DNA of 64,000 bases. Origin: Wolfiporia cocos. Taxonomy: Eukaryota; Basidiomycota; Agaricomycetes; Polyporales; Phaeolaceae. This document shows positions 21,752-60,192 of the stretch, piece by piece; position 1 is the stretch's first letter; every line of letters begins with the position of its first letter. The translations under genes and the position numbers were made by a program. Location of the stretch: NCBI GenBank assembly GCA_029448655.1, contig JACCLO010000005.1, positions 1,240,001 through 1,304,000 on the forward strand. The letters run 5' to 3'. Below the pieces are notes generated by a model. The model searched no databases and was not told the DNA's origin. It saw only the letters and a list, made by a program, of their open reading frames with translations.

Positions 21752-22723
21752 TCACGGCCACTCAGAGGGCCTCCGGGTCGGGGTCGTTGTATCCCGCATC
21801 TGTATCGGGGAGCGGAGGCATCGGAGGGGGGATCCATACCTGATATAAGGCGCACTCGCCGACGCAATGTCCTGGCTGCGTGACTCTGCAGGTGGGGCAT
21901 CTGTAATCGGGACAGTCGAGGACCCAATGCCAGGGGCTACCACATCGACGACAGGGCTCTTCGGCGGATGGTCGAGGTGGCGAGCGGGCTGAGGGGACGG
22001 CGCGAAGATATTCTCCTGATTCGTACCGCTGGTGGTGGTGATGGGCCCAGAGACGCTGTCGGAGCCAGGTAGGCAGCTGGTAAAGGGATTCGTCCCATCC
22101 GTCCCTCCCTCGCTCCCACTCCTCCCGGGTAATGATCTCAACTGATGGAGATCTGTTGCTAACTCCGTCGCTAGCAGCTCCAGAGGTCGGCGAGGGGGGA
22201 GCCCCACAATCACCCGCCCTCTCTCGAACTGGGCATCGTTCATCGTCTCGTGGATGCGGAGGAGGGCGCGCTGATTCTCGAGGTCGAGGTCCTGCGGGGG
22301 CGGTCGGTACGGCAGCGTCGCGAGGTACCACATGACTGTATTCCATAAAATCGAATGGTTCTGCAATTCGATCCAGCTCGCCGTCGTCGAGTAACCAGGG
22401 GGGCATGGCTGGGACAGGGCTTCGCATTCGTGGTAAGCGGGGCGGGCCCGCTTCGACTTCTGCGAACGCTCGCCGGATTCGCGATGGTGTCGACGCCCCG
22501 AGGTAGTCGATCCACTGACCGATGCACCGCCCAAGCCTCTGTCGCTGAAGGAGGGCTGTGCGCTCGAGTTGGACGATTCTCTCCGTGACGTCCTGGTACT
22601 GGTCGAATATGTCGGTGAGTTCCTGTACGAGTTCAAATCGATCGGTCCAGGGGGTCGCCTGCCCTCCGGGGGGAATGTCGGACCTGTGCCAGGTGAGTGC
22701 ATGTCTGATGCGGACGTGGGCAT
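21752..22723 (-). CDS. Pol-frame C-terminal extension overlapping ORF3 (beta-a)
   Basis: A 323-codon frame lies on top of ORF3, in phase with the upstream chromodomain frame and separated from it by a stop at 22886. It contains SILWNTVMWYLATLP and GLPPRRPLELLA, DLHQLRSLPGRSGSE. These align without gaps with the Pol C-terminal extension of alpha-1 near 34136-34385, about 30 identities in 83 residues by eye. In the same bases the ORF3 frames of the two families share almost nothing. This is why I list it as probable coding rather than a shadow. It is not known how it would be translated in beta-a; a frameshift, splice or reading through the stop are options. Confidence 0.55.
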   Translation of the reverse strand: MPTSASDMHSPGTGPTFPPEGRRPPGPIDLNSYRNSPTYSTSTRTSRRESSNSSAQPSFSDRGLGGASVSGSTTSGRRHHRESGERSQKSKRARPAYHECEALSQPCPPGYSTTASWIELQNHSILWNTVMWYLATLPYRPPPQDLDLENQRALLRIHETMNDAQFERGRVIVGLPPRRPLELLATELATDLHQLRSLPGRSGSEGGTDGTNPFTSCLPGSDSVSGPITTTSGTNQENIFAPSPQPARHLDHPPKSPVVDVVAPGIGSSTVPITDAPPAESRSQDIASASAPYIRYGSPLRCLRSPIQMRDTTTPTRRPSEWP

Positions 22724-22940
22724 CCTCCGAGCAGCCGTAACACCTGCCTGTCTGGTACCCCATGCGGACTGCGAGAGATCGCCACATCGTTGGGGCGGTA
22801 GGTCGCTCGGACGGGCTGGTTGTAGGGAGTGGCGTCGACATGCTATTTCTTCGACCTGTCGGGCCTTGACCTTCGTCCTCTTGCTTTAAAACTCCCTGAG
22901 GACATCCGGGGAATTCTTTAGACTGGCTTCGCCTTCCCAT
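21762..22940 (-). CDS. Beta-a ORF3, double zinc-knuckle protein downstream of pol
   Basis: The longest frame is 392 codons; by comparison with alpha-1 the likely start is the MSTPLP methionine about 32 residues in. A conserved N-terminal part (IRHALTWHRSD, coiled-coil-like ELTDIFDQYQDVTERIVQLE) is followed by FDFME, a variable Pro-rich middle, RSPSVEIITREEWERG, then two Cys/His clusters. These are CRRCGSPWHWVLDC (CX2CX4HX4C) and CPTCRVTQPGHCVGEC (CX2CX6HX4C). Such clusters bind nucleic acid in retroelement proteins. There is no signal peptide or membrane segment, so although it sits where env would be it is not an envelope protein. Its frame is -1 relative to the overlapping Pol-frame reading. 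No stops interrupt it, unlike pol of the same copy. Confidence 0.75.
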   Translation of the reverse strand: MGRRSQSKEFPGCPQGVLKQEDEGQGPTGRRNSMSTPLPTTSPSERPTAPTMWRSLAVRMGYQTGRCYGCSEDAHVRIRHALTWHRSDIPPGGQATPWTDRFELVQELTDIFDQYQDVTERIVQLERTALLQRQRLGRCIGQWIDYLGASTPSRIRRAFAEVEAGPPRLPRMRSPVPAMPPWLLDDGELDRIAEPFDFMEYSHVVPRDAAVPTAPAGPRPRESARPPPHPRDDERCPVRERAGDCGAPPSPTSGAASDGVSNRSPSVEIITREEWERGRDGWDESLYQLPTWLRQRLWAHHHHQRYESGEYLRAVPSARSPPRPSAEEPCRRCGSPWHWVLDCPDYRCPTCRVTQPGHCVGECALYQVWIPPPMPPLPDTDAGYNDPDPEAL

Positions 22941-27056: not shown

Positions 27057-27751
27057 TGTTACAGTTATTTTGATTTTTCGAATATCGACAGAACTCACCA
27101 CCGGGCGAATAAAATACAGGGACTTGTTGCGCAACCAGCCCCCTGGCTACTCGTGATCTTACTGGGCGCATCCCCAGTTGTACTAGTCTGTAGGGCTCGT
27201 TTCATCTTTGGCAGATCCAACCCTGCCACCGTTTCATGTTCATCGATTACTAGCTGACAGATGGCGTTCAACCGCCATCATTCCTATCTATCATCTCAGA
27301 TATATCACTCCATACTTATCAAACGTTTGGGACTATAGCGTAGATAGTATCGGTGGCATCTGGGACAGACTTGACCCCTGAAACCTAGCGTAGTATAAAA
27401 ACTCATGTACTTACCGTCGAGGCTCTTCAGCTCGACCTTGTTGTATAAACAAGAAGTCTTATACTTGTTCTCAAACGTAGGAAACTACGCTCAGTATTTC
27501 TCACTCGAGCAACCGAACGACTAAGTCCTCGAAGTGCACACTGACTTCTCGGACTTGGGCGAGTCTTATATTCTATTTGACTCGCACTTGAACAGATTAT
27601 ATCCTCTAACGCGTATTGGATATTAACCGATCTCCTAAGGACTTCACTTAGGACCCGAAGGCATCTAACGAGTATTTGCCTTGCATACGGCGACATGCCT
27701 ACGTGCAGAAGAACGATCTATATTCGCGACTCGAATATTCGACCCGTAACA
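27057..27751 (+). repeat. 5' LTR of alpha-1 (recombinant)
   Basis: TGTTACAG to CCGTAACA. Its first 240 or so bases differ from the 3' LTR at several sites, while its last 330 agree with it. This is the pattern expected if the left part came from another alpha LTR. It lacks about 12 bp near its 3' end. Confidence 0.92.
27394..27439 (+). promoter_or_regulatory. Alpha LTR promoter and predicted transcript 5' end
   Basis: TATAAAA at 27394-27400; 35 bases on is AGCTCGACCTT at 27429-27439, the exact reverse complement of the primer site after the LTR. This fixes the likely transcription start at or near 27429. Confidence 0.65.
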
Positions 27752-27797: not shown

Positions 27798-29636
27798 ATG
27801 ATATTTGGACCAGAATTCCCAGCACGACTGATTGAACTCTTGCCCAAGGACATTCATGGAGTCTACAGACTCAACCGATACAAGTGGACTGACACCATTG
27901 GAGCCTTCCGTAACCACGGAGGAATTGTTGTCATCCCCAGAGAAGATAGGGCATCGAAGTGGGTACAAGTATACCCCTCCGCAGGAACAACCGCTTGGGA
28001 AATAACGCGTGAAGCGTTCGAACGATTCGGAGAAATCCCTCCGATGTCAACCGCGACGTTGAGCGAAAACAAAACCGAAACCATCAACAGAACCTTTGAT
28101 GCCGATGGAAATACGAATCAGCCTTCGGGCGCCACAGGAATTGAGCGCATCGGAAATGATGGGAGAAATCCTGGAAACTTTACAGGAACAGATAACAGCC
28201 ATACCGGAGGACAGGACCCTCCAGGATTTGTATCTGCTTTTGCGCAGAGTGGGATTGGGCCTATGGCTGGAGGAACAGACCTCTTTGGAAACCCCCCACA
28301 GAACGCACCCGGAATGGGTAGCGGAGGAAATCCGTCTTGGACTAGCCCAAGCGGAGGAATGGGAACGACAAACCCAGGAACATGGCCTTCAGGCCTATTT
28401 GGACGAACCTCCGCAGGTACAAGCGGAGGAGGACTGGGAGGAAACTTCGGACTCGGAGGAGGGAATGCCCCTCCTCCTGGAGGACTCGGAGGAGGAACCC
28501 CCGCAAACCCCGGAGGAGGAAACCCTGGAGGGAACCCAGGGAACCCCGGAGGAAACCCAGGAAATCCGGGTGGAGGATACCCGGGAGGAGGAGGACCCCC
28601 AGGAGGGCCTCCACCACCGAATGCACCGCAGTCTCAACCTCCGGCGCCGAACCCGTACTACCGACCCCCAATGATAAAGATCAACCCCCCAGACGTATTC
28701 GACGGGGAACGATCCGACATGCAGAACTTCATAAACCAGTGCAATTCCTGGTTTACGATGTACGAAACGTCATTCCAGAACGACGTTCAGAGAGTGATCT
28801 TTATCCTCTCTTATATTTCGAACAAGGGGAAAACGGGCCAATGGAAACAGAATTATCACCGGGTTTATACGAACCCCCAGACAAAACGATTCTTCCCGCC
28901 TAGTCTTGCACAGTTTGATGCAGACTTCCAGAAAGCCTTCGGAGCCATCGAAGAGGTACAGAAGGCGCGGAAGAAAATCCTGGACGTAACCCAGGACAGA
29001 AAGGACATCGATGATTATATCACCGAATTCAACAACTTGGCCGGAAAGGCCCAGTACGATCGATACAGCGCGGACGGAAACGCGTTGCTCATAACCCTCT
29101 TCGAGAAAGGGTTACCCGAACATACGACCCGATACATCATCGGCGTTCGGCCGCTACCAGCGACCATCGATGAATGGCAGTCCGCTGCCTCGTACTATGA
29201 AAATACGTACAAGATATTCTTGAAACGGGACAAACCGTTTGTCAAGAAAAAGGCTTGGCAAGCCTCGAACCAGAATAACGGACGCACTAGTGCTCCACAG
29301 ACAACCACACCGAAAGATCCGAATGCGATGGATGTAGATCGAATGACCACCCAGGAAAGGGACGATCACATCAAGAAGGGAAAATGTTTCACCTGTCATC
29401 AGCCAGGGCATATGTCGTGAGACTGCCCGAAGAGGCCAAGGAAGTCAGCCCGCCCTAGGCGGACTACTCGAAAGACCGAAGAAGAAGAAGCCGAGCAAGA
29501 AGCTCGCATTGAAGAAGTCTCTGAGGAAGAGACTGAATACATCACCGCTAACAGAGCGGTCACAGCAATTAGGGCCCTGAAAGCCAAGAACCCCGAGCTC
29601 CTAGCACAGCTCGTAGAAGAACAGGATTTTGCCTAG
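27798..29636 (+). CDS. Alpha-1 Gag, with one in-frame TGA before the zinc knuckle end
   Basis: Starts MIFGPEFPARLIELLPKD, parallel to the beta Gag start MQRFDPNLPTRLIEILP. An N-terminal domain (about 1-95) is followed by a Gly/Asn/Pro-rich linker (about 100-280) with GGNPGNPGG-type repeats. Next comes a capsid-like domain beginning near NPPDVFDGERSDMQ (residue 296) with WFTMYETSF and FILSYI, as in retrotransposon gag families. Last is a zinc knuckle CFTCHQPGHMSxDC. A TGA at 29418-29420 stands where the other copy has Arg (SRDC). Beyond it the frame continues for about 70 acidic residues to the TAG at 29634. This protein would build the virus-like particle. It is probably a recently damaged but otherwise intact gene. 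Confidence 0.85.
28096..28674 (+). CDS. Possible overlapping ORF inside alpha gag
   Basis: A 192-codon frame lies +1 relative to gag over the Gly-rich linker. Its first half is leucine-rich and amphipathic (EILETLQEQITAI, DLYLLLRRVGLGLWLEEQ), its second half very acidic. The second alpha copy at 61432-61716 keeps the first 94 codons nearly unchanged. Out-of-phase readings of GGA-rich repeats are often open by chance, so this is a weak candidate. Confidence 0.25.
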   Translation: MMPMEIRISLRAPQELSASEMMGEILETLQEQITAIPEDRTLQDLYLLLRRVGLGLWLEEQTSLETPHRTHPEWVAEEIRLGLAQAEEWERQTQEHGLQAYLDEPPQVQAEEDWEETSDSEEGMPLLLEDSEEEPPQTPEEETLEGTQGTPEETQEIRVEDTREEEDPQEGLHHRMHRSLNLRRRTRTTDPQ

Positions 29637-29725
29637 GAGGGAAGCCCACGGTCTTACCCTCCGAGAAAGCAGCGCATGTAATTACCTCGTTTGAGAAGAA
29701 TTGATCCCTCTTCATCCCGGTAATC

Positions 29726-32700
29726 ATGACGCTGGCAAAACCCGTGAAGTGCAATGCACTAATCGACTCAGGAGCAATGTCGAACCTGATCCACAGCAGA
29801 GTGGTAGAAAAATACAAGGTGCCTACGCAACCCTTGAAGAACCCGATCATCGTCAAAAATGTTGACGGGACAGAAAACAAAGATGGGCGAATAGACCGAG
29901 AAGCCACCATACTACTACGATATCCGAAGACCCGGAAAACGCGAAAAGTCCGATTCCTAGTAGGATCAATCGAAACAGAAAATATGATTCTAGGGTATGG
30001 ATGGCTAAAAGACGAAAACCCCACAATCGACTGGAAGGACCAAACAGTCGACGTACGATCAATACTAGGGGCAGAAGAAAAGAAACAGGAAACCACGATC
30101 CGAATGGATATGGTGGAAATGGTAGTTGCCCCAGAAGGGAAAATTCCAACAAGGGGGACCCAAGAAGCTGCAGGGTACGACCTTTACGCCGCAGAAGAAA
30201 CTGAGATTCCCGCCGGAGGATGGAAACTCGTCTCCACAGGAGTAAAAATGAAGATCCCGAAGGGATCGTATGGAAGGCTGGCCGGACGATCAGGCAACAC
30301 CCTCAGACACGGATTGGTGGTACAAGCCGGAGTCATAGACTCGGACTACCGAGGAGACGTCGGAGCCATCGTCTTCAACTACTCAGACAAGACACATAGA
30401 ATTATCCCGGGCATGCGAATAGCCCAGATAATCTTCGAACGGCACCTCACCCCCGACATTATAGAGGTCAAAGACCTAGATGAAACAGAACGAGGGGAGA
30501 AAGGGTTTGGATCCACGGACCAGCCAGAGGAAACAGCGCAGCGGCTCTATACTCCCGAGGAGTACGAAGCGATCCGACGCTTTGCAAAAGATAACCCTAG
30601 GATCATAGGAAAGAAAGGGGAGACGCGAAAGAAGTTCCGAACAAAGATACAAATCATCAACGCTGTCAGGAAAGCGCTGACGAAATCCCAGGAATTCGCG
30701 CAGAAAACCCCCGAACCAGAACGAACGATTGAGGAGATGGTCCCGAAACACCTACTGGACTTCGCCAAGGTGTTCAGCAAGGAATCCGCAGCAGCGTTCC
30801 CCCCGTCGAGACCATGGGACCACGCAATCAAATTAAAACCCGATTTTGTGCCGAAAGACTGCAAAGTCTATGCACTCTCGCCTAAAGAGCAACAAGCGCT
30901 GGACGAATTCCTAAAAGAAAACTTGGCCAAGGGATTCATAGTCCCTTCAAAATCCCCGATGGCGTCACCATTCTTTTTCGTCCCAAAGAAAGACAGCGGC
31001 TTACGACCCTGTCAAGATTATCGATATCTGAACGAAGGGACGATAAAGAACGTCTATCCCTTGCCACTGATCTCAGAGCTCCTGGAAAAGCTAAAAGGAG
31101 CAAAGATCTTCACAAAAATGGACCTTAGAGCGGGATACAACAACGTGCGGATCAAGAAGGGAGACGAATGGAAAGCAGCCTTCAAAACAAACCGAGGGTT
31201 GTACGAGCCCACAGTTATGTTTTTTGGATTGTGCAACGCACCCGGAACCTTTCAGGCAATGATGAATGAAATCCTGAAAGAAGAAATCCTCGAAGGGTGG
31301 GTGCTTGTCTATATGGACGACATCCTCGTTTTCTCAGAAGAAGAGAAAACACACAAAGAACGGGAACGGCGGGTCCTTCAGAAATTGGTGGACAACCACC
31401 TCTTTGTGAAACCCGAGAAATGCGCCTTCGGCGTCGACCGAGTTGAGTTCCTAGGGCTGGTCATCACCCCAGGGAACATCCAGATGGACCCAGCGAAACT
31501 CAACGGGATTAAAGAATGGCCGACTCCCCGAAATCTCAAGGAAGTCAGATCCTTCCTAGGGTTTGCAAACTTCTATCGAAAATTCATTGACCACTACTCA
31601 ACGCACGCACAACCCCTGGTAGACCTCACAAAAACGGTCACAGGAACGGGGTTCCAGTGGACGGACAAAGAACAGAGAGCGTTCGACTTCATGAAGCAGG
31701 CATTCACGACGGCGCCCGCGCTAGGAACACCAGATAAGGAGAAATCATTCATCCTCGAAACAGATGCATCTCAGTTCACCACAGGAGCAGTGCTGAAACA
31801 AACAGATGAAACAGGGCGCGAACGGCCAGTGGGATATCTCTCACAATCCCTGACATCAACAGAACGGAACTACGAAATCTACGATCGCGAACTACTCGGA
31901 ATAGTCCGAGCACTAGAAGAATGGCGGCACCTATTGGAAGGAGCACCGCATCGGATCTTGATCCGAAGTGATCATCAGAACCTGACGTACTGGAGAAGCG
32001 CACAGCGCCTAAATCGGCGACAAGCGAGATGGCATCTATTCCTTTCACAATTCGACCTGAAATTGCAGCACGTCCCCGGAAGGAAACTAGTCATGGCCGA
32101 CACACTTTCCAGGTTGTACCACCTTGACGAAAGCAACGAAGACAACGAGGGAATCACCATGATTCCAGACGAACTCGTCGTCCATGCAATCCAGATCCCG
32201 ATCATTGATCGAATCAAGAACACCGATGATCGAGATGAATCTGCGGAACAGGCGATCCGTGCTCTAGGGGGCACAGGCGAATTCCCCGCGAGAACCACCG
32301 CAGATGAATGGCAACAAACGGATGGAATACTGCTCTACAGGGGCAGAATGTACGTGCCAAAAGACGAGGACCTTCGACGAGACGTCATCTCAAAATACCA
32401 CGACACGATCCCGGCCGGACACCCTGGGATCTGGGGTACAACAGTACAGGTTACGACCCACTTTTGGTGGCCTGACATGAGAACAATGATAGCGGAATAC
32501 GTCCGAGGCTGTGCAATCTGTCAACAGATGAAACCTGATAGGAATCCGCTAAAACCCCCTTTGCAACCAATACCGACACGGGAAGACGCCCTCCCCTTCT
32601 CACAGTGCTCGGTCGATTTTGTCACCGACCTGCCAAGAGTCGGAAAGTATGATTCTATGATGGTGATTGTTGACCATGGCCTATCCAAGGCCATCTCTCT

Positions 32701-34780
32701 CACCCCGTGCGACAAAACAATTACAAGCGAAGGGGCCGCAGAAATATTCCATCGAAAGATATATTCACAATACGGCATCCCCCGAAAGATCATTTCAGAC
32801 AGAGGACCGCAGTTTGCATCGAAGCTTTTCAAGGAATTATGCAAGCTGCAGGGGACGGAATCAGCGATGAGCACGGCGTACCATCCACAGACCGACGGAC
32901 AGACAGAAAGAATGAATCAACAGATCGAAGTATACCTTCGCATCTATTGCATGAACGACCCTTTCCAGTGGGTACAACGACTGCCTGACGTCGAATTTGC
33001 TCACAACACCAGACGGACCGAAAACCGACCAGCGCCACTTGAAATAATCCTAGGATACGTCCCGAGAGGATTCCCAGACTATGACAGAGTAGGGAACGTC
33101 CCGGCAGCTGTCGACAGGATCAAGAAGATCAAAGAGGCGCAAAAGATGGCATTCATCGCGCATGAATTAGCCCAGAAAAGAATGGCAGGGCGGTTCCTCA
33201 GAGAACTGCCGAAGCTTGAGAAAGGGGATAAGGTCTGGCTCGACGCCCAGCACCTAACGATCCCCTATGAATCGAACAAACTGGCACCAAAAAGAGAAGG
33301 ACCTTTCACCATCACAGAAAAGATGGGACCCACGACATACCGGCTGCAATTACCAGCGAATTGGAAAATTCATCCGGTCTTCCACGCGGCCTTACTAAAA
33401 CCATTCAAAGAAACAAGGGTACACGGACCCAATTACCTACGACCGCCACCTGATATCATCAAGGGACAAGAAGAATACGAAGTCGAAGCCATCTTGGCTG
33501 ACAGATGGCAAAGAAAGAAGCATCAATACTTCGTCAAGTGGAAAGGCTATGCCACGGCCGACAACTCATGGGAAGACGAGGCGAACTTGGAGCATTCCAA
33601 GGAGTTGATAAAAAGCTACCACCGAACGCGAGTCAGAACAACCCCGACACTCGAAAGCCGAACAGTAATAATATGTCGACGACTCGCCACCAACTCCCTC
33701 GTCGCGCCACGACCCCCCACAGCGACACGGGTCACCGGGAAGGACAACCGAGAGGTACGCCGCCAAGGAGGTACTCCCCCCAACATCTGCAGATCAGACA
33801 CGCCCTCCTCTGGTACAGGGCCGAGGGACCTTTTGCTGGCCGAGCCGATGGCTGGACGGCCCTCTTCGACATCACGCAGGACCTCACCCATATCTACAGC
33901 TCGTACCAGAATATCGCCGAGGACCTCGTCAGAATGGAGGGGCAGATCCGAGCGCAGAGAGAGGGACTCGAGTCACTCACCGACAGACTTATCGACAGAT
34001 TGGCCGCCACCACGACGGCCCGACTACGACACGCGCTCAACGACTTCGAGGATCGCGAGCACGTTACTCCCAGTCGACCCGAATACGCACCGCGACCCGC
34101 CCGCTTTTTCACCGCCGACGAACGATGCCGAGTTGCAAGGCCGTTTGATTTTATGGAGGGCGATAGAGTATTATTTCCGTTGCCTACCGAGACTCAGAGG
34201 GCCCGCCAAACAGGAGTTAGAAACCCGACGCCACGTATTTCTGGTATGGGAGGCAACGGGAGACGTGAACCACCTGCACGCCCGACAAGCCCTAGGGCTA
34301 CCCCAGCGCGACAGCGAAGAGCGAATAGCACGCCGCCTATTCGACGATCTCCTTCAGTGCAGAGTATTACCCGCGAGGAGTTTGAGCGAGGTGCGAGGGA
34401 GCACGAACGAGACACCGCCTCCCTACCAACATGGGCCGCACGAAACCTCCACCAAGCCGCACACCACTGGAGGTACCAACATAACGAATACCTCCGCGAT
34501 ATCCCTTCCCTACGGGTACCAGCGAGGCCCTCACCCGAGCAGCCGTGTCGACAATGTGGTTCCGCTAACCACTGGATCCTCGACTGCCCCGATTATATTT
34601 GCAGAGCTTGTGGGCTCAATCAACCAGGTCATCGACAGAATGAATGCCGCCAACACTTCGTATGGCAAACTCCTACGACCCCGTCCCTCAGCGGGAACGG
34701 CGACATCTACAACGAACAGGACGCCGAGGCACTCTGAAGAGAGAAACTTGGAAAATTCGTCGAGGCCGACGAATGCCTAG
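29726..34780 (+). CDS. Alpha-1 Pol polyprotein with dUTPase, chromodomain and C-terminal extension
   Basis: 1684 codons without a stop. Domains by residue: protease (NALIDSGAMSNLI, Asp near 14); dUTPase about 130-262 with all five motifs (AGYDLYA, GRLAGRSG, GVIDSDYRGD, RIAQIIFE, RGEKGFGSTD); reverse transcriptase (YMDDI near 528); RNase H (ILETDASQ near 675); integrase with HHCC zinc site (CAICQQMK near 930) and catalytic Asp, Asp, Glu near 962, 1023 and 1058; GPFTI; chromodomain about 1248-1300 (YFVKWKGYATADNSWE); then an unusual extension of about 380 residues overlapping ORF3. It makes and integrates the DNA copy; the chromodomain may steer integration to marked chromatin. The frame is -1 to gag and open upstream of the ATG except for one TGA near 29703, so Gag-Pol fusion by frameshift is possible. 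Confidence 0.93.
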   Translation: MTLAKPVKCNALIDSGAMSNLIHSRVVEKYKVPTQPLKNPIIVKNVDGTENKDGRIDREATILLRYPKTRKTRKVRFLVGSIETENMILGYGWLKDENPTIDWKDQTVDVRSILGAEEKKQETTIRMDMVEMVVAPEGKIPTRGTQEAAGYDLYAAEETEIPAGGWKLVSTGVKMKIPKGSYGRLAGRSGNTLRHGLVVQAGVIDSDYRGDVGAIVFNYSDKTHRIIPGMRIAQIIFERHLTPDIIEVKDLDETERGEKGFGSTDQPEETAQRLYTPEEYEAIRRFAKDNPRIIGKKGETRKKFRTKIQIINAVRKALTKSQEFAQKTPEPERTIEEMVPKHLLDFAKVFSKESAAAFPPSRPWDHAIKLKPDFVPKDCKVYALSPKEQQALDEFLKENLAKGFIVPSKSPMASPFFFVPKKDSGLRPCQDYRYLNEGTIKNVYPLPLISELLEKLKGAKIFTKMDLRAGYNNVRIKKGDEWKAAFKTNRGLYEPTVMFFGLCNAPGTFQAMMNEILKEEILEGWVLVYMDDILVFSEEEKTHKERERRVLQKLVDNHLFVKPEKCAFGVDRVEFLGLVITPGNIQMDPAKLNGIKEWPTPRNLKEVRSFLGFANFYRKFIDHYSTHAQPLVDLTKTVTGTGFQWTDKEQRAFDFMKQAFTTAPALGTPDKEKSFILETDASQFTTGAVLKQTDETGRERPVGYLSQSLTSTERNYEIYDRELLGIVRALEEWRHLLEGAPHRILIRSDHQNLTYWRSAQRLNRRQARWHLFLSQFDLKLQHVPGRKLVMADTLSRLYHLDESNEDNEGITMIPDELVVHAIQIPIIDRIKNTDDRDESAEQAIRALGGTGEFPARTTADEWQQTDGILLYRGRMYVPKDEDLRRDVISKYHDTIPAGHPGIWGTTVQVTTHFWWPDMRTMIAEYVRGCAICQQMKPDRNPLKPPLQPIPTREDALPFSQCSVDFVTDLPRVGKYDSMMVIVDHGLSKAISLTPCDKTITSEGAAEIFHRKIYSQYGIPRKIISDRGPQFASKLFKELCKLQGTESAMSTAYHPQTDGQTERMNQQIEVYLRIYCMNDPFQWVQRLPDVEFAHNTRRTENRPAPLEIILGYVPRGFPDYDRVGNVPAAVDRIKKIKEAQKMAFIAHELAQKRMAGRFLRELPKLEKGDKVWLDAQHLTIPYESNKLAPKREGPFTITEKMGPTTYRLQLPANWKIHPVFHAALLKPFKETRVHGPNYLRPPPDIIKGQEEYEVEAILADRWQRKKHQYFVKWKGYATADNSWEDEANLEHSKELIKSYHRTRVRTTPTLESRTVIICRRLATNSLVAPRPPTATRVTGKDNREVRRQGGTPPNICRSDTPSSGTGPRDLLLAEPMAGRPSSTSRRTSPISTARTRISPRTSSEWRGRSERRERDSSHSPTDLSTDWPPPRRPDYDTRSTTSRIASTLLPVDPNTHRDPPAFSPPTNDAELQGRLILWRAIEYYFRCLPRLRGPAKQELETRRHVFLVWEATGDVNHLHARQALGLPQRDSEERIARRLFDDLLQCRVLPARSLSEVRGSTNETPPPYQHGPHETSTKPHTTGGTNITNTSAISLPYGYQRGPHPSSRVDNVVPLTTGSSTAPIIFAELVGSINQVIDRMNAANTSYGKLLRPRPSAGTATSTTNRTPRHSEERNLENSSRPTNA
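33673..34737 (+). CDS. Alpha-1 ORF3, double zinc-knuckle protein overlapping pol
   Basis: The frame is open from 33505, but the methionine at 33673 (MSTTRHQLPRRA) matches the beta-a start MSTPLP. About 354 residues. Conserved with beta-a: IRHALLWYRAE, the DLTHIYSSYQNIAEDLVRME helix, RPFDFME, RSPSVQSITREEFERG, LPTW, EYLRDIPS. The same holds for the two clusters CRQCGSANHWILDC (CX2CX4HX4C) and CRACGLNQPGHRQNEC. Lies +1 out of phase with ORF3 is the Pol frame, open across the whole ORF. No hydrophobic segment. Role unknown; a nucleic-acid-binding accessory protein is the simplest guess. Confidence 0.78.
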   Translation: MSTTRHQLPRRATTPHSDTGHREGQPRGTPPRRYSPQHLQIRHALLWYRAEGPFAGRADGWTALFDITQDLTHIYSSYQNIAEDLVRMEGQIRAQREGLESLTDRLIDRLAATTTARLRHALNDFEDREHVTPSRPEYAPRPARFFTADERCRVARPFDFMEGDRVLFPLPTETQRARQTGVRNPTPRISGMGGNGRREPPARPTSPRATPARQRRANSTPPIRRSPSVQSITREEFERGAREHERDTASLPTWAARNLHQAAHHWRYQHNEYLRDIPSLRVPARPSPEQPCRQCGSANHWILDCPDYICRACGLNQPGHRQNECRQHFVWQTPTTPSLSGNGDIYNEQDAEAL

Positions 34781-34791: not shown

Positions 34792-35498
34792 TGTTACAGT
34801 TATTTTAATTTTTCGAATATCGACAGAACTCACCACCAGGTGAATACGATACAGGGACTTGTTGCGCAACCAGCCCCCTGGCTACTCGTGATCTTACTGG
34901 GCGCATCCCCAGTTGTACTAGTCTGTAGGGCTCGTTTCATCTTTGGCAGATCCAACCCTGCCATCGTTTCATGTTCATCGTTTATTAGCGGACAGATGGC
35001 GTTCAACCGCCATCATTCCTATCTATCATCTCAGATATATCACTCCATACTTATCAAACGTTTGGGACTATAGCGTAGATAGTATCGGTGGCATCTGGGA
35101 CAGACTTGACCCCTGAAACCTAGCGTAGTATAAAAACTCATGTACTTACCATCGAGGCTCTTCAGCTCGACCTTGTTGTATAAACAAGAAGTCTTATACT
35201 TGTTCTCAAACGTAGGAAACTACGCTCAGTATTTCTCACTCGAGCAACCGAACGACTAAGTCCTCGAAGTGCACACTGACTTCTCGGACTTGGGCGAGTC
35301 TTATATTCTATTTGACTCGCACTTGAACAGATTATATCCTCTAACGCGTATTGGATATTAACCGATCTCCTAAGGACTTCACTTAGGACCCGAAGGCATC
35401 TAACGAGTATTTGCCTTGCATACGGCGACATGCCTACGTGCAGAAGAACGATCTATATTCGCGACTCGAATATACGAACGGGTATTCGACCCGTAACA
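34792..35498 (+). repeat. 3' LTR of alpha-1
   Basis: 707 bp. Its first part shares private bases with the LTR at 39981-40686, its second part with the 5' LTR at 27057, as expected of the one LTR of the three not touched by the inversion. Followed by CAGGG, the target duplication. Confidence 0.93.
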
Positions 35499-37703: not shown

Positions 37704-37897
37704 ATGCCATCACCTCAGCCTACTCCCAGTCAGCCTGACCGCCCCAGAGCCCTGACACTGCGTCGATCCCTTGCCATTTGGATGGGATACCAGACAGGCA
37801 GGTCTTACGGGTGTTCTGATGAGGCCCACCTCCGCACTTGTCACGCACTCACCTGGCACAGGTCTGACACCCCCCCAGGTGGCCATCCGACCCCCTG
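37704..37897 (+). pseudogene. Beta-b ORF3, 5' part, cut by beta-a insertion
   Basis: MPSPQPTPSQPDRPRA to CHALTWHRSDTPPGGHPTP matches beta-a ORF3 and is cut at CCCTG by the beta-a LTR. The continuation is at 21071-21164. Confidence 0.82.
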
Positions 37898-58779: not shown

Positions 58780-60192
58780 CTCTAAGTGTTCATCGTCCTC
58801 GACAAACTCTCTAGACTCAGCTCCTCAGAGGGCCTCAGCATCCTGTTCATTGTAGATGTCTCCGTTCCCGCTGAGCGACGGGGTTGTAGGAGTTCGCCAT
58901 ACAAAGTGTTGGCGGCACTCATTCTGTCGATGACCTGGTTGATTGAGTCCACAAGCCCTGCAAATATAGTCAGGGCAGTGACACAGACTAACCTGTCTGT
59001 GGGACCTGCGCTGCAGGGGTATCCTATAACGCCTAACAGGACGGTGCACGACCGCACTAGCGGTGACCAGGTCGGCTGTACCAAAGGTGAGTCCCACCTA
59101 AGGACTCCTAGTGGCGACATAGTATGGTGGCACACAGTCAAGATAGACGAGACAGGCCCCCGGGGCAGAGACACACACAGAACACGGAGAGAAAGGGGCT
59201 ATGCCCAATTGTCGAGAATCTTAGGAATGGGGAGTAAGCCCACATTCCGTCGTAATAAATACATGAGCGATGGAGACACTAGTACTACCCTAAAGAGATG
59301 GCCTGTGCGCCGTATCTATGAGGTCATGTGCTAAGTGACGCTACATGTAACTACTGTGACCATATTGTGAGTACCGGAGGCGCGCGCTACCCTACAGCGC
59401 TAACCTAACTGACCAGGTGACCTGCAATATCTGGGAGACGCTGGAGGTGACTACAGCGCAGAGGAGCGGCGTACGCCTAGCGCCGCTCGTGCGTCCTATA
59501 GCGAGGGAGTACAAACTATTAGTAGAATAATTTGTGACAGGCAGTCGAGGATCCAGTGGCTGGCAGAACCGCACTGGTGACAGGGTTGCTCGGGTGAAGG
59601 TTGTGCTGGTACCCATAGGGAAGGGATATCCCGGAGGTATTCGTTGTGCCGGTACCGCCAGTGGTGTGCTGCTCTGTGGAGGTTTTGCGCTGCCCATAAG
59701 GGTAGGGAGGCAGTGTCTCATTCGTGGTCCCTCACACCTCACTCAAACTCCTCATGGGTAATGCTCTGCACTGATGGAGATCGTCGAATAGGCGGCGTGC
59801 TATTCACTCTTTGCTCTCACGCTGGGGTAGCCCTAGGGCTCTGTGTGCGTGGAGGTGGTTCATGTCTCCGGTCACCTCCCATACCAGGAATACGTGGCAT
59901 CGGTTCTCTAGCTCCTGTTCTGTGGGCCCTCTGAGTGTCAGTAGGCAACGGAAATAGTACACGATCGCATTCCATAAAATCAAACGGCCATGCAGTTTGA
60001 TGTCGTTCGTCGGTGGTGAAAAAGCGGGTGGGTCATGGTATGTATTTGGGTCAGTTGGGAGTAGTGTGCTCCTGATTCTCGAAGTTGTTGAGCATGTGTC
60101 ATAGTCGCGCTGTCATGGTGGTGGCCAATCGGTCAATAAGTCTGTCGGTGAGCTCCCCGAGTCTCTCTCTCTGCATGCTGATCTGCCCCTCC
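58780..60192 (-). pseudogene. Gamma ORF3 and overlapping Pol-frame tail, broken
   Basis: Minus-strand ORF3 ending LSGNGDIYNEQDAEAL near 58828, with the zinc cluster DYICRACGLNQPGHRQNEC, closely like alpha-1. It is interrupted at 58979-59539 by a solo LTR; beyond it come the first zinc cluster and upstream parts to about 60192, where an alpha LTR truncates it at the QI.MQRE.LGELTDRLIDRL helix. The overlapping Pol frame also persists (SINQVIDRMSAANTLYGELL) over the last 393 bases. pol itself is absent. Confidence 0.8.
58979..59539 (+). repeat. Solo LTR, family C, in gamma ORF3
   Basis: 561 bp, TGACACAG to TTTGTGACA, flanked by GGCAG (58974-58978 and 59540-59544). Same family as 6562-7112. Confidence 0.93.

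Follow-up and report, generated by a model that had tools for sequence, protein, structure and literature searches.

The stretch of DNA analysed here, referred to as the window, comprises 64,000 nucleotides (nt) of contig JACCLO010000005.1 from Wolfiporia cocos and contains a Ty3/Gypsy chromovirus that we call alpha-1. At the 3' end of this fungal chromodomain element two genes on the same strand very probably overlap, with Pol being read through a nested gene in another frame, open reading frame 3 (ORF3), and with selection divided between the two. From the sequences of the copies of the element it is established that both frames are open in intact copies, that the constraint switches between the frames along the overlap, and that ORF3 has a common start and a common end. 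The overlap involves the following features.

29726..34780, plus strand, Pol ORF of alpha-1: protease-dUTPase-reverse transcriptase (RT)-RNase H-integrase-chromodomain plus an extension, stop codon at 34778-34780
33476..33625, plus strand, chromodomain of Pol: PF00385, 58.3 bits, Pol residues 1251-1300
33641..34777, plus strand, C-terminal extension of Pol: 379 codons past the chromodomain, almost reaching the 3' long terminal repeat (LTR)
33673..34737, plus strand, ORF3: 354 amino acids, wholly within the Pol extension, frame -1 relative to Pol
33673..34135, plus strand, segment I: conserved frame ORF3 (phase profile, class rates)
34136..34360, plus strand, segment II: conserved frame Pol; predicted helical domain in Pol, low-complexity linker in ORF3
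34361..34737, plus strand, segment III: conserved frame ORF3 (phase profile, class rates)

The Pol frame runs from 29726 to 34780 without an internal stop. An earlier note on this DNA had described it as open for about 380 codons past the chromodomain, with ORF3 occupying a different frame of the same bases; counted from 33641 there are 379 such codons, ORF3 is indeed open alongside them, and the phase given in the note (Pol frame +1 to ORF3) is correct, the first codon position of Pol being the second codon position of ORF3.

Copies compared

The window is set in a genome of 64,431,438 bases in 76 contigs, and all copies compared below come from this same genome. The alpha-type set was derived from 77 matching loci and holds 60 distinct stretches, 91.7-100% identical to the window sequence; openness was counted in alpha-1 and the 59 others. 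A diverse set of 20 copies, 4 alpha-type and 16 beta-type, consists of alpha-1, a second copy in the window (beta-a), and 18 stretches picked by identity level from the 125 matches to the beta-a Pol extension. Some of these 20 copies are omitted from the pair sets for class rates, phase profile, bootstrap and third-position calibration. Variants within the alpha type were counted in 30 distinct copies out of 38 loci. A further collection of 95 loci gave 65 distinct stop-free sequences, 43 after thinning, of which 36 were aligned.

The constraint switches frame twice along the overlap

In the diverse set the fastest-changing codon position is the third position of ORF3 at first, then the third position of Pol between 34136 and 34360, and thereafter again that of ORF3. 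A sliding phase profile assigned 22 of 34 positions of the slide to the ORF3 phase and 7 to the Pol phase, all of the latter within 34123-34362, with 5 mixed. Bootstrapping of the log2 ratio gave +1.27 (0.85 to 1.82) for segment II vs -0.86 for segment I and -1.31 for segment III, and the interval of segment II does not overlap with those of the other two. When changes were counted as Fitch parsimony events, placed on a tree built without 34100-34400, the Fisher P value was 2e-28, and 4e-30 once all sites that touch a CpG in at least one of the copies had been removed, both values being nominal since the events were taken as independent.

The same division was obtained when sites of the 20 diverse copies were counted by their effect in each frame. 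Between beta subgroups, changes synonymous in ORF3 amount to 0.34-0.45 in segment I and 0.37-0.62 in segment III and are slow (0.11-0.23) in segment II, and changes synonymous in Pol are fast in segment II (0.28-0.57) and slow elsewhere (0.09-0.20). The ratio of nonsynonymous to synonymous change (dN/dS) in segment II is 0.50-0.92 for ORF3 and 0.12-0.25 for Pol, and in segment III it is 0.06-0.13 for ORF3 and 0.35-0.98 for Pol. A Pol ratio near 1 across 34136-34385, which the earlier note had singled out as a point that would count against it, is thus not what these copies exhibit; in the deepest comparison, alpha x beta, which is near saturation, the Pol ratio in segment II is 0.62. Among copies of this genome the claim of a switching frame is borne out, with purifying selection on Pol in the middle and on ORF3 on both sides. 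The alignments of alpha-1 with beta-a described in the note could be reproduced as well: 30/82 residues of the Pol middle segment are identical without gaps (about 30/83 in the note), and ORF3 is poorly alike between FDFME and RSPSV (8/62 identical).

The third-position difference in the chromodomain, which is read in Pol only, is 0.47, and served to calibrate the overlap, where ORF3 third positions differ by 0.349 in segment I and 0.435 in segment III and Pol third positions by 0.379 in segment II. By this calibration Pol has almost no amino-acid constraint in segment III, and in segments I and II each frame costs the other slightly. Because the Pol amino acids outside the middle segment look nearly free, the overlap is a case of divided constraint and not of two proteins constrained along its whole length.

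Another explanation would be that ORF3 is the sole gene, the Pol extension being filler left open by chance after the loss of the Pol stop codon, and the similarity in the Pol frame a shadow of ORF3. The near freedom of the Pol amino acids in segments I and III is what this explanation predicts, as is the open Pol frame in segment III, that of segment I being mildly unexpected. It fails in segment II, where Pol third positions change fastest and the ORF3 amino acids change fast, and where the similarity of Pol exceeds what ORF3 alone would produce. With both ORF3 proteins held fixed and their codons redrawn, in 4 of the 64 alpha-beta pairs, Pol similarity in segment II reached z values of 6.0-6.4, compared with 0.9-2.4 for the third frame (a control for shared ancestry) and with Pol values of 1.5-2.5 in segment I and 1.2-2.9 in segment III. 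We consider ORF3 as the sole gene highly improbable.

Stop codons in the two frames

Over 33641-34737, 53 of the 60 alpha-type copies have an open Pol frame, and each of the remaining 7 carries one stop, always TGA; over 33673-34735 the frame is open in 17 of the 20 diverse copies, whose stops in Pol and in ORF3 are without exception TGA. Frequent Pol-frame stops in other copies would have spoken against a second gene, as the earlier note pointed out; they are sporadic (7/60 alpha-type, 3/20 diverse copies). ORF3 ends at the same TGA in 59/60 alpha-type copies and is free of earlier stops after 33673 in 40/60, the other 20/60 being interrupted. Both frames are stop-free in 6/20 diverse copies, with alpha-type and beta-type represented. 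The third frame carries 12-17 stops in each of the 60 alpha-type copies. Indels in the overlap of these copies are a 3-nt deletion common to many, an 8-nt deletion in one and a 3-nt deletion in one.

Conversion of CGA to TGA was recorded at 3/123 opportunities in the Pol frame vs 44/317 in ORF3 among the 20 diverse copies (Fisher P 2e-4, nominal), and at 7/660 vs 28/1313 among the 60 alpha-type copies (P 0.10). The Pol frame looks better guarded from stops than ORF3, with the caveat that the copies are related. Nearly all premature stops in the overlap, in the 60 alpha-type and the 20 diverse copies alike, are TGA, as C-to-T decay of CGA predicts. It was also observed that ORF3 collects TGA stops more than Pol does, a pattern that would fit Pol being required in cis and ORF3 being dispensable or supplied by other copies.

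Given the sequence of ORF3, an open Pol frame in a single element is no more than mildly surprising. Redrawing of synonymous codons under a fixed ORF3 predicts 2.2-2.9 Pol-frame stops for segment I and 0.5-1.2 for segment III, and the chance of an open Pol frame in segment I given ORF3 is P 0.03-0.09 per copy (nine copies tested). Avoidance of stops as a proof of selection was dropped, since codon redraw and forward drift gave weak support. Openness is therefore not leaned on here, and the CGA-to-TGA comparison is stronger, albeit nominal. Openness alone is weak evidence; the case is built mainly on the pattern of substitutions across many copies.

The two predicted proteins

In the 16 of 20 diverse copies where the ORF3 ATG was located, it lies at one position and has a purine at -3. 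A start at 33505 does not hold: in 9/60 alpha-type copies the ORF3 frame is closed by a stop at 33652 or 33658, so the conserved start is 33673 and ORF3 is fully nested in Pol. Given the purine at -3 in the 16 located copies, and a slippery heptamer in Pol phase near the start in one of these 16, ORF3 probably starts at its own AUG at 33673. A programmed -1 frameshift as the route to ORF3 was rejected on the same heptamer count (1/16). A separate start for the Pol middle segment was rejected too, as no Pol-frame ATG upstream of 34136 is present in more than 9/20 copies.

The C-terminal part of ORF3 contains two clusters of cysteine and histidine.

34546..34587, plus strand, predicted ORF3 zinc knuckle 1: C-x2-C-x4-H-x4-C; C292, C295, H300 and C305 invariant in 6 aligned ORF3 proteins
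34600..34647, plus strand, second Cys/His cluster of ORF3: C-x2-C-x6-H-x4-C; C310, C313, H320 and C325 invariant in 6 aligned ORF3 proteins

The first of them was matched by Pfam zf-CCHC at 17.9 bits, under the cutoff of 20.8, and the Pfam scan of ORF3 returned nothing beyond such sub-threshold zinc-binding matches. In the five copies examined for composition, the middle of ORF3 consists to 67-75% of P, S, G, Q, R, K, E and A, and large hydrophobic residues make up 13-16% of ORF3 in segment II and 32-40% of Pol. The Pol middle segment is predicted, with modest confidence, to be helical: the best AlphaFold2 (AF2) model has three helices and a mean predicted local distance difference test score (pLDDT) of 70. 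The AF2 model of the whole Pol extension is poor (pLDDT 35).

Both frames of the overlap recur in W. cocos proteins. A profile of ORF3 found 4 proteins among 7993 scored candidates, all from W. cocos; the Pol extension within full-length Pols had no match among 7985 candidates, and the homologue search of viral contigs gave no match. A sequence search of the PDB gave a best E value of 0.88 for ORF3 and of 0.024 for the middle domain, the latter not counted as a match. From 1064 related fungal Pols the 120 best were inspected. The chromodomain was located in 119 of these 120; in most of them the protein ends no more than a few residues from it, and the extension has no match in any of the 120. 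The Pol extension thus looks like a lineage-specific addition, and since most related Pols stop at the chromodomain, an ORF3 that already existed and was then overprinted is the likelier order of events. One metagenomic chromovirus Pol (P0069, 1509 amino acids) has about 259 residues past its chromodomain that are rich in S, P and T and resemble an out-of-frame reading of another gene. This tail is dissimilar to the alpha-1 extension and could be a second case of a nested ORF3.

The arrangement that we envisage is as follows. Pol, having no stop at the usual place after the chromodomain, would be read through the nested ORF3 in another frame. The N-terminal part of ORF3 and its zinc-knuckle C-terminus would be protected where Pol is filler, and a helical Pol domain of about 80 residues would be protected where ORF3 is a linker. 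Pol and its extension would form one polyprotein, which would make the helical domain a C-terminal addition to the integrase. ORF3 would be translated from its own AUG, by a separate mRNA or by internal initiation, and may act as an accessory nucleic-acid-binding protein. The extension would have arisen by overprinting of the already existing ORF3, and besides these two products there may be a spliced form in which ORF3 segment I is joined to the Pol frame.

Weighing of the evidence

Several results weigh against the reading of two overlapping genes. There is little sign of constraint on the Pol amino acids in segments I and III, where the Pol ratio rises to as much as 1.03 and, in segment III, ORF3 third positions differ by 0.435 vs 0.47 for third positions read in Pol only. 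ORF3 is interrupted in 14/20 diverse copies and stop-free in 6/20, all breaks being TGA, and in the forward-drift version of the stop-avoidance test no single pair was significant. Mean identity between alpha and beta in segment II is 34% for Pol, 29% for ORF3 and 26% for the third frame; plain protein identity as a test was dropped as too weak at this depth. Shared variants in segment II within the 30 alpha-type copies fall on 10 ORF3 third, 7 Pol third and 4 Pol first positions and show no Pol phase (2, 5 and 1, respectively, when restricted to CpG-free variants). Of the five AF2 models of the middle domain the other four have pLDDT values of 51-59, and a Foldseek search with the model of this domain gave no fold match (best E 1.8). 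Lastly, with a leeway of 12 nt at donor and acceptor (34165/34211) a fitting GT-AG pair is present in 20/20 copies, and 3 of the 1660 pairs of 12-nt intervals scanned, at two places in the overlap, reach at least 19 copies. The earlier note had read the arrangement as the pattern of two real proteins that share DNA. This reading is supported, with three refinements: Pol looks nearly free outside the middle, ORF3 is broken by TGA in 14/20 diverse copies, and a possible intron lies at the first switch.

Variation in segment II is low at all phases among the alpha-type copies, in which a Pol-only stretch is strongly periodic (25/217/32) and the downstream LTR flat (39/39/43). Low variation at all three codon positions would suit a cis-acting RNA or DNA signal, instead of a second protein, that slows change in the middle segment, and ATTTTATGGA is present in 15/15 copies displayed. 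Such a signal would not yield three-base periodicity in the Pol frame, however, and the flat LTR control also argues against it. The chances of a cis-acting signal being the explanation appear very slight.

Possible splicing at the first switch

A more serious alternative is splicing in place of Pol read-through: an intron near 34168-34222 would join ORF3 segment I to the Pol-frame middle, and the middle segment would belong to a spliced ORF3 product. Four gene models of W. cocos MD-104 (P0001-P0004) are built in this way: they begin with ORF3 segment I and continue in the Pol frame up to their last residue, as if an intron lay between. The candidate is the following.

34165..34228, plus strand, possible intron: GT near 34168/34171, AG near 34213-34222; would lead ORF3 into the Pol frame

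The exact GT-AG pair 34171-34222 (52 nt, fitting phase) occurs in 16/16 beta-type and in no alpha-type copies, and the exact pair 34168-34222 in 13/20 diverse copies, three of them alpha-type. Taken together with the pair found in 20/20 copies with leeway, and at two places of the overlap only, these counts are in favour of an intron. On the other hand, no donor GT column common to at least 85% of the copies was found in 33929-34356 (a GT at 34143, near the junction of some W. cocos models, is present in 10/20 diverse copies), no exact splice pair at the first switch occurs in more than 16/20 copies, and exact pairs at 16/20 are also seen in two of six other regions scanned. The W. cocos models, moreover, stay in the Pol frame where ORF3 is constrained, and their junctions differ.

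The substitution pattern inside the candidate intron is also difficult to reconcile with splicing. Within 34171-34222 the frequencies are 0.456/0.181/0.155 at the third, first and second Pol codon positions, indicating that the stretch is read as Pol codons; an intron would lack such periodicity. At the second switch no splice pair leading back to ORF3 is common to alpha and beta, the best being 12/20 at 38 nt. Since the candidate intron is periodic in Pol codons and a second intron common to both types was not found, introns alone do not explain the switch of constraint. Segment III, which is kept in the ORF3 frame, is left unread by the modelled spliced product, which argues further against splicing as the whole story. 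We therefore regard splicing in place of read-through as unlikely and favour overlapping genes. As an addition to them, a spliced isoform joining ORF3 segment I to the Pol frame is possible, since each of the 20 copies has a GT-AG pair of suitable phase close to the first switch.

Relation to known overlaps and retroelements

Most known cases of long gene overlaps with divided constraint come from compact viruses, and in hepatitis B virus (HBV) the S gene is fully nested in P. The polymerase/surface overlap of HBV, reviewed in PMC8227390, is one of the two nearest analogies to alpha-1, the other being found in a retrovirus. In HBV, too, the element is reverse-transcribing and its polymerase gene is overlapped by an accessory gene, and the linker of one protein lies over the other gene. 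Alpha-1 differs in being a fungal LTR retrotransposon whose nested gene has predicted zinc knuckles, and in that the linker belongs to the nested gene and the new domain to Pol. The segregated overlaps of human immunodeficiency virus type 1 (HIV-1), as described in the accessible part of PMC9119678, are similar in that each nucleotide is held mainly by one gene and a structured part lies over a disordered part; the alpha-1 overlap exceeds 1000 nt and was deduced from sequence evolution, not from mutational scanning.

In a literature search aimed at such an arrangement, with subscription papers outside it, no Gypsy element was found whose Pol extension harbours a nested gene, in agreement with the earlier note, which knew of none. 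A close fungal counterpart is PosPlaTy3-5 of Postia placenta, a chromovirus with a dUTPase between protease and RT (PMC2864245, available text). It resembles alpha-1 as a basidiomycete Gypsy element with the dUTPase at the same position, and differs in that neither an overlap nor a Pol extension is described in that text; the legend of its Figure 3 mentions an additional ORF of unknown function in some fungal element. Additional ORFs between pol and the 3' LTR, likewise an extra ORF at this location, are the aORFs of plants (PMC7264820) and the ORF3s of bdelloids (PMC5408684), the latter with types named env-like, GDSL, DEDDy, CC and TM; the word 'overlap' is absent from the accessible text of both papers.

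We put forward tentatively, and at somewhat less than even chances, that a hepadnavirus-like nesting evolved here independently: Pol would have lost its stop codon and overprinted an already present zinc-knuckle gene, and a folded domain born de novo in the linker of that gene would have become a selected part of the integrase. If true, the element would provide a high-copy natural series for the birth of domains by overprinting. A retrotransposon is under little obvious pressure on genome size, yet about 1.06 kb of this one codes twice. Its many copies in one genome are replicate histories, which allow direct tests of how selection is shared between overlapping frames and of the idea that a protein's linker can give rise to a folded domain of a different protein. 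The four public W. cocos models that join both frames may be an annotation trap, representing either an artefact or a third product.

Architecture of alpha-1 and other copies in the window

The remaining parts of alpha-1 are listed below.

27057..27356, plus strand, part of the 5' LTR: repeated directly at 34792-35091 over 300 nt with 97% identity
27798..29420, plus strand, gag: Pfam Retrotrans_gag 28.7 bits, cutoff 24.1
34792..35091, plus strand, part of the 3' LTR: same 300-nt repeat, 11 nt after the Pol stop codon

The Pfam matches in Pol follow the order protease-RT-RNase H-integrase, with the chromodomain after the integrase; those of the protease are under the curated cutoffs and that of rve slightly so (31.2 vs 32.6). 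A dUTPase domain lies between protease and RT (30137-30517 of the window, residues 138-264, 129 bits). The CCHC motif of gag, a weak Pfam match (12.4 bits), is interrupted by a premature in-frame stop at 29418, after which the frame continues to a stop at 29634. Pol opens past a stop in its own frame at 29702. There is thus no overlap between gag and Pol, and Pol needs its own way of starting.

Three further copies in the window had been reported to share the overlap.

21762..22841, minus strand, beta-a ORF3: from the conserved ATG
21752..22885, minus strand, beta-a extension in the Pol frame: one stop, then 377 open codons
37704..37755, plus strand, beta-b, remnant of the overlap: Pol frame closed by a stop at 37753, followed by truncation of the element
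58782..59174, minus strand, gamma, relic: 3' portion of an alpha-type copy that an insertion has split

For beta-a this is correct in that both frames are present, with one Pol-frame stop; beta-b and gamma are relics and add little. The single Pol-frame stop of beta-a lies just past the chromodomain. None of ten other beta-type copies has a stop at that codon, and 3 of the ten carry a different single stop in the stretch just past the chromodomain. Of the 125 places in the genome matched by the beta-a Pol extension, 23 lie within an open frame of at least 1600 codons, and copies of ORF3 number 637 as first-look candidates and 114 as scored matches. The gamma relic (58785-59897, minus strand) is an alpha-type copy broken within the zinc-knuckle region by an insertion of about 570 nt.

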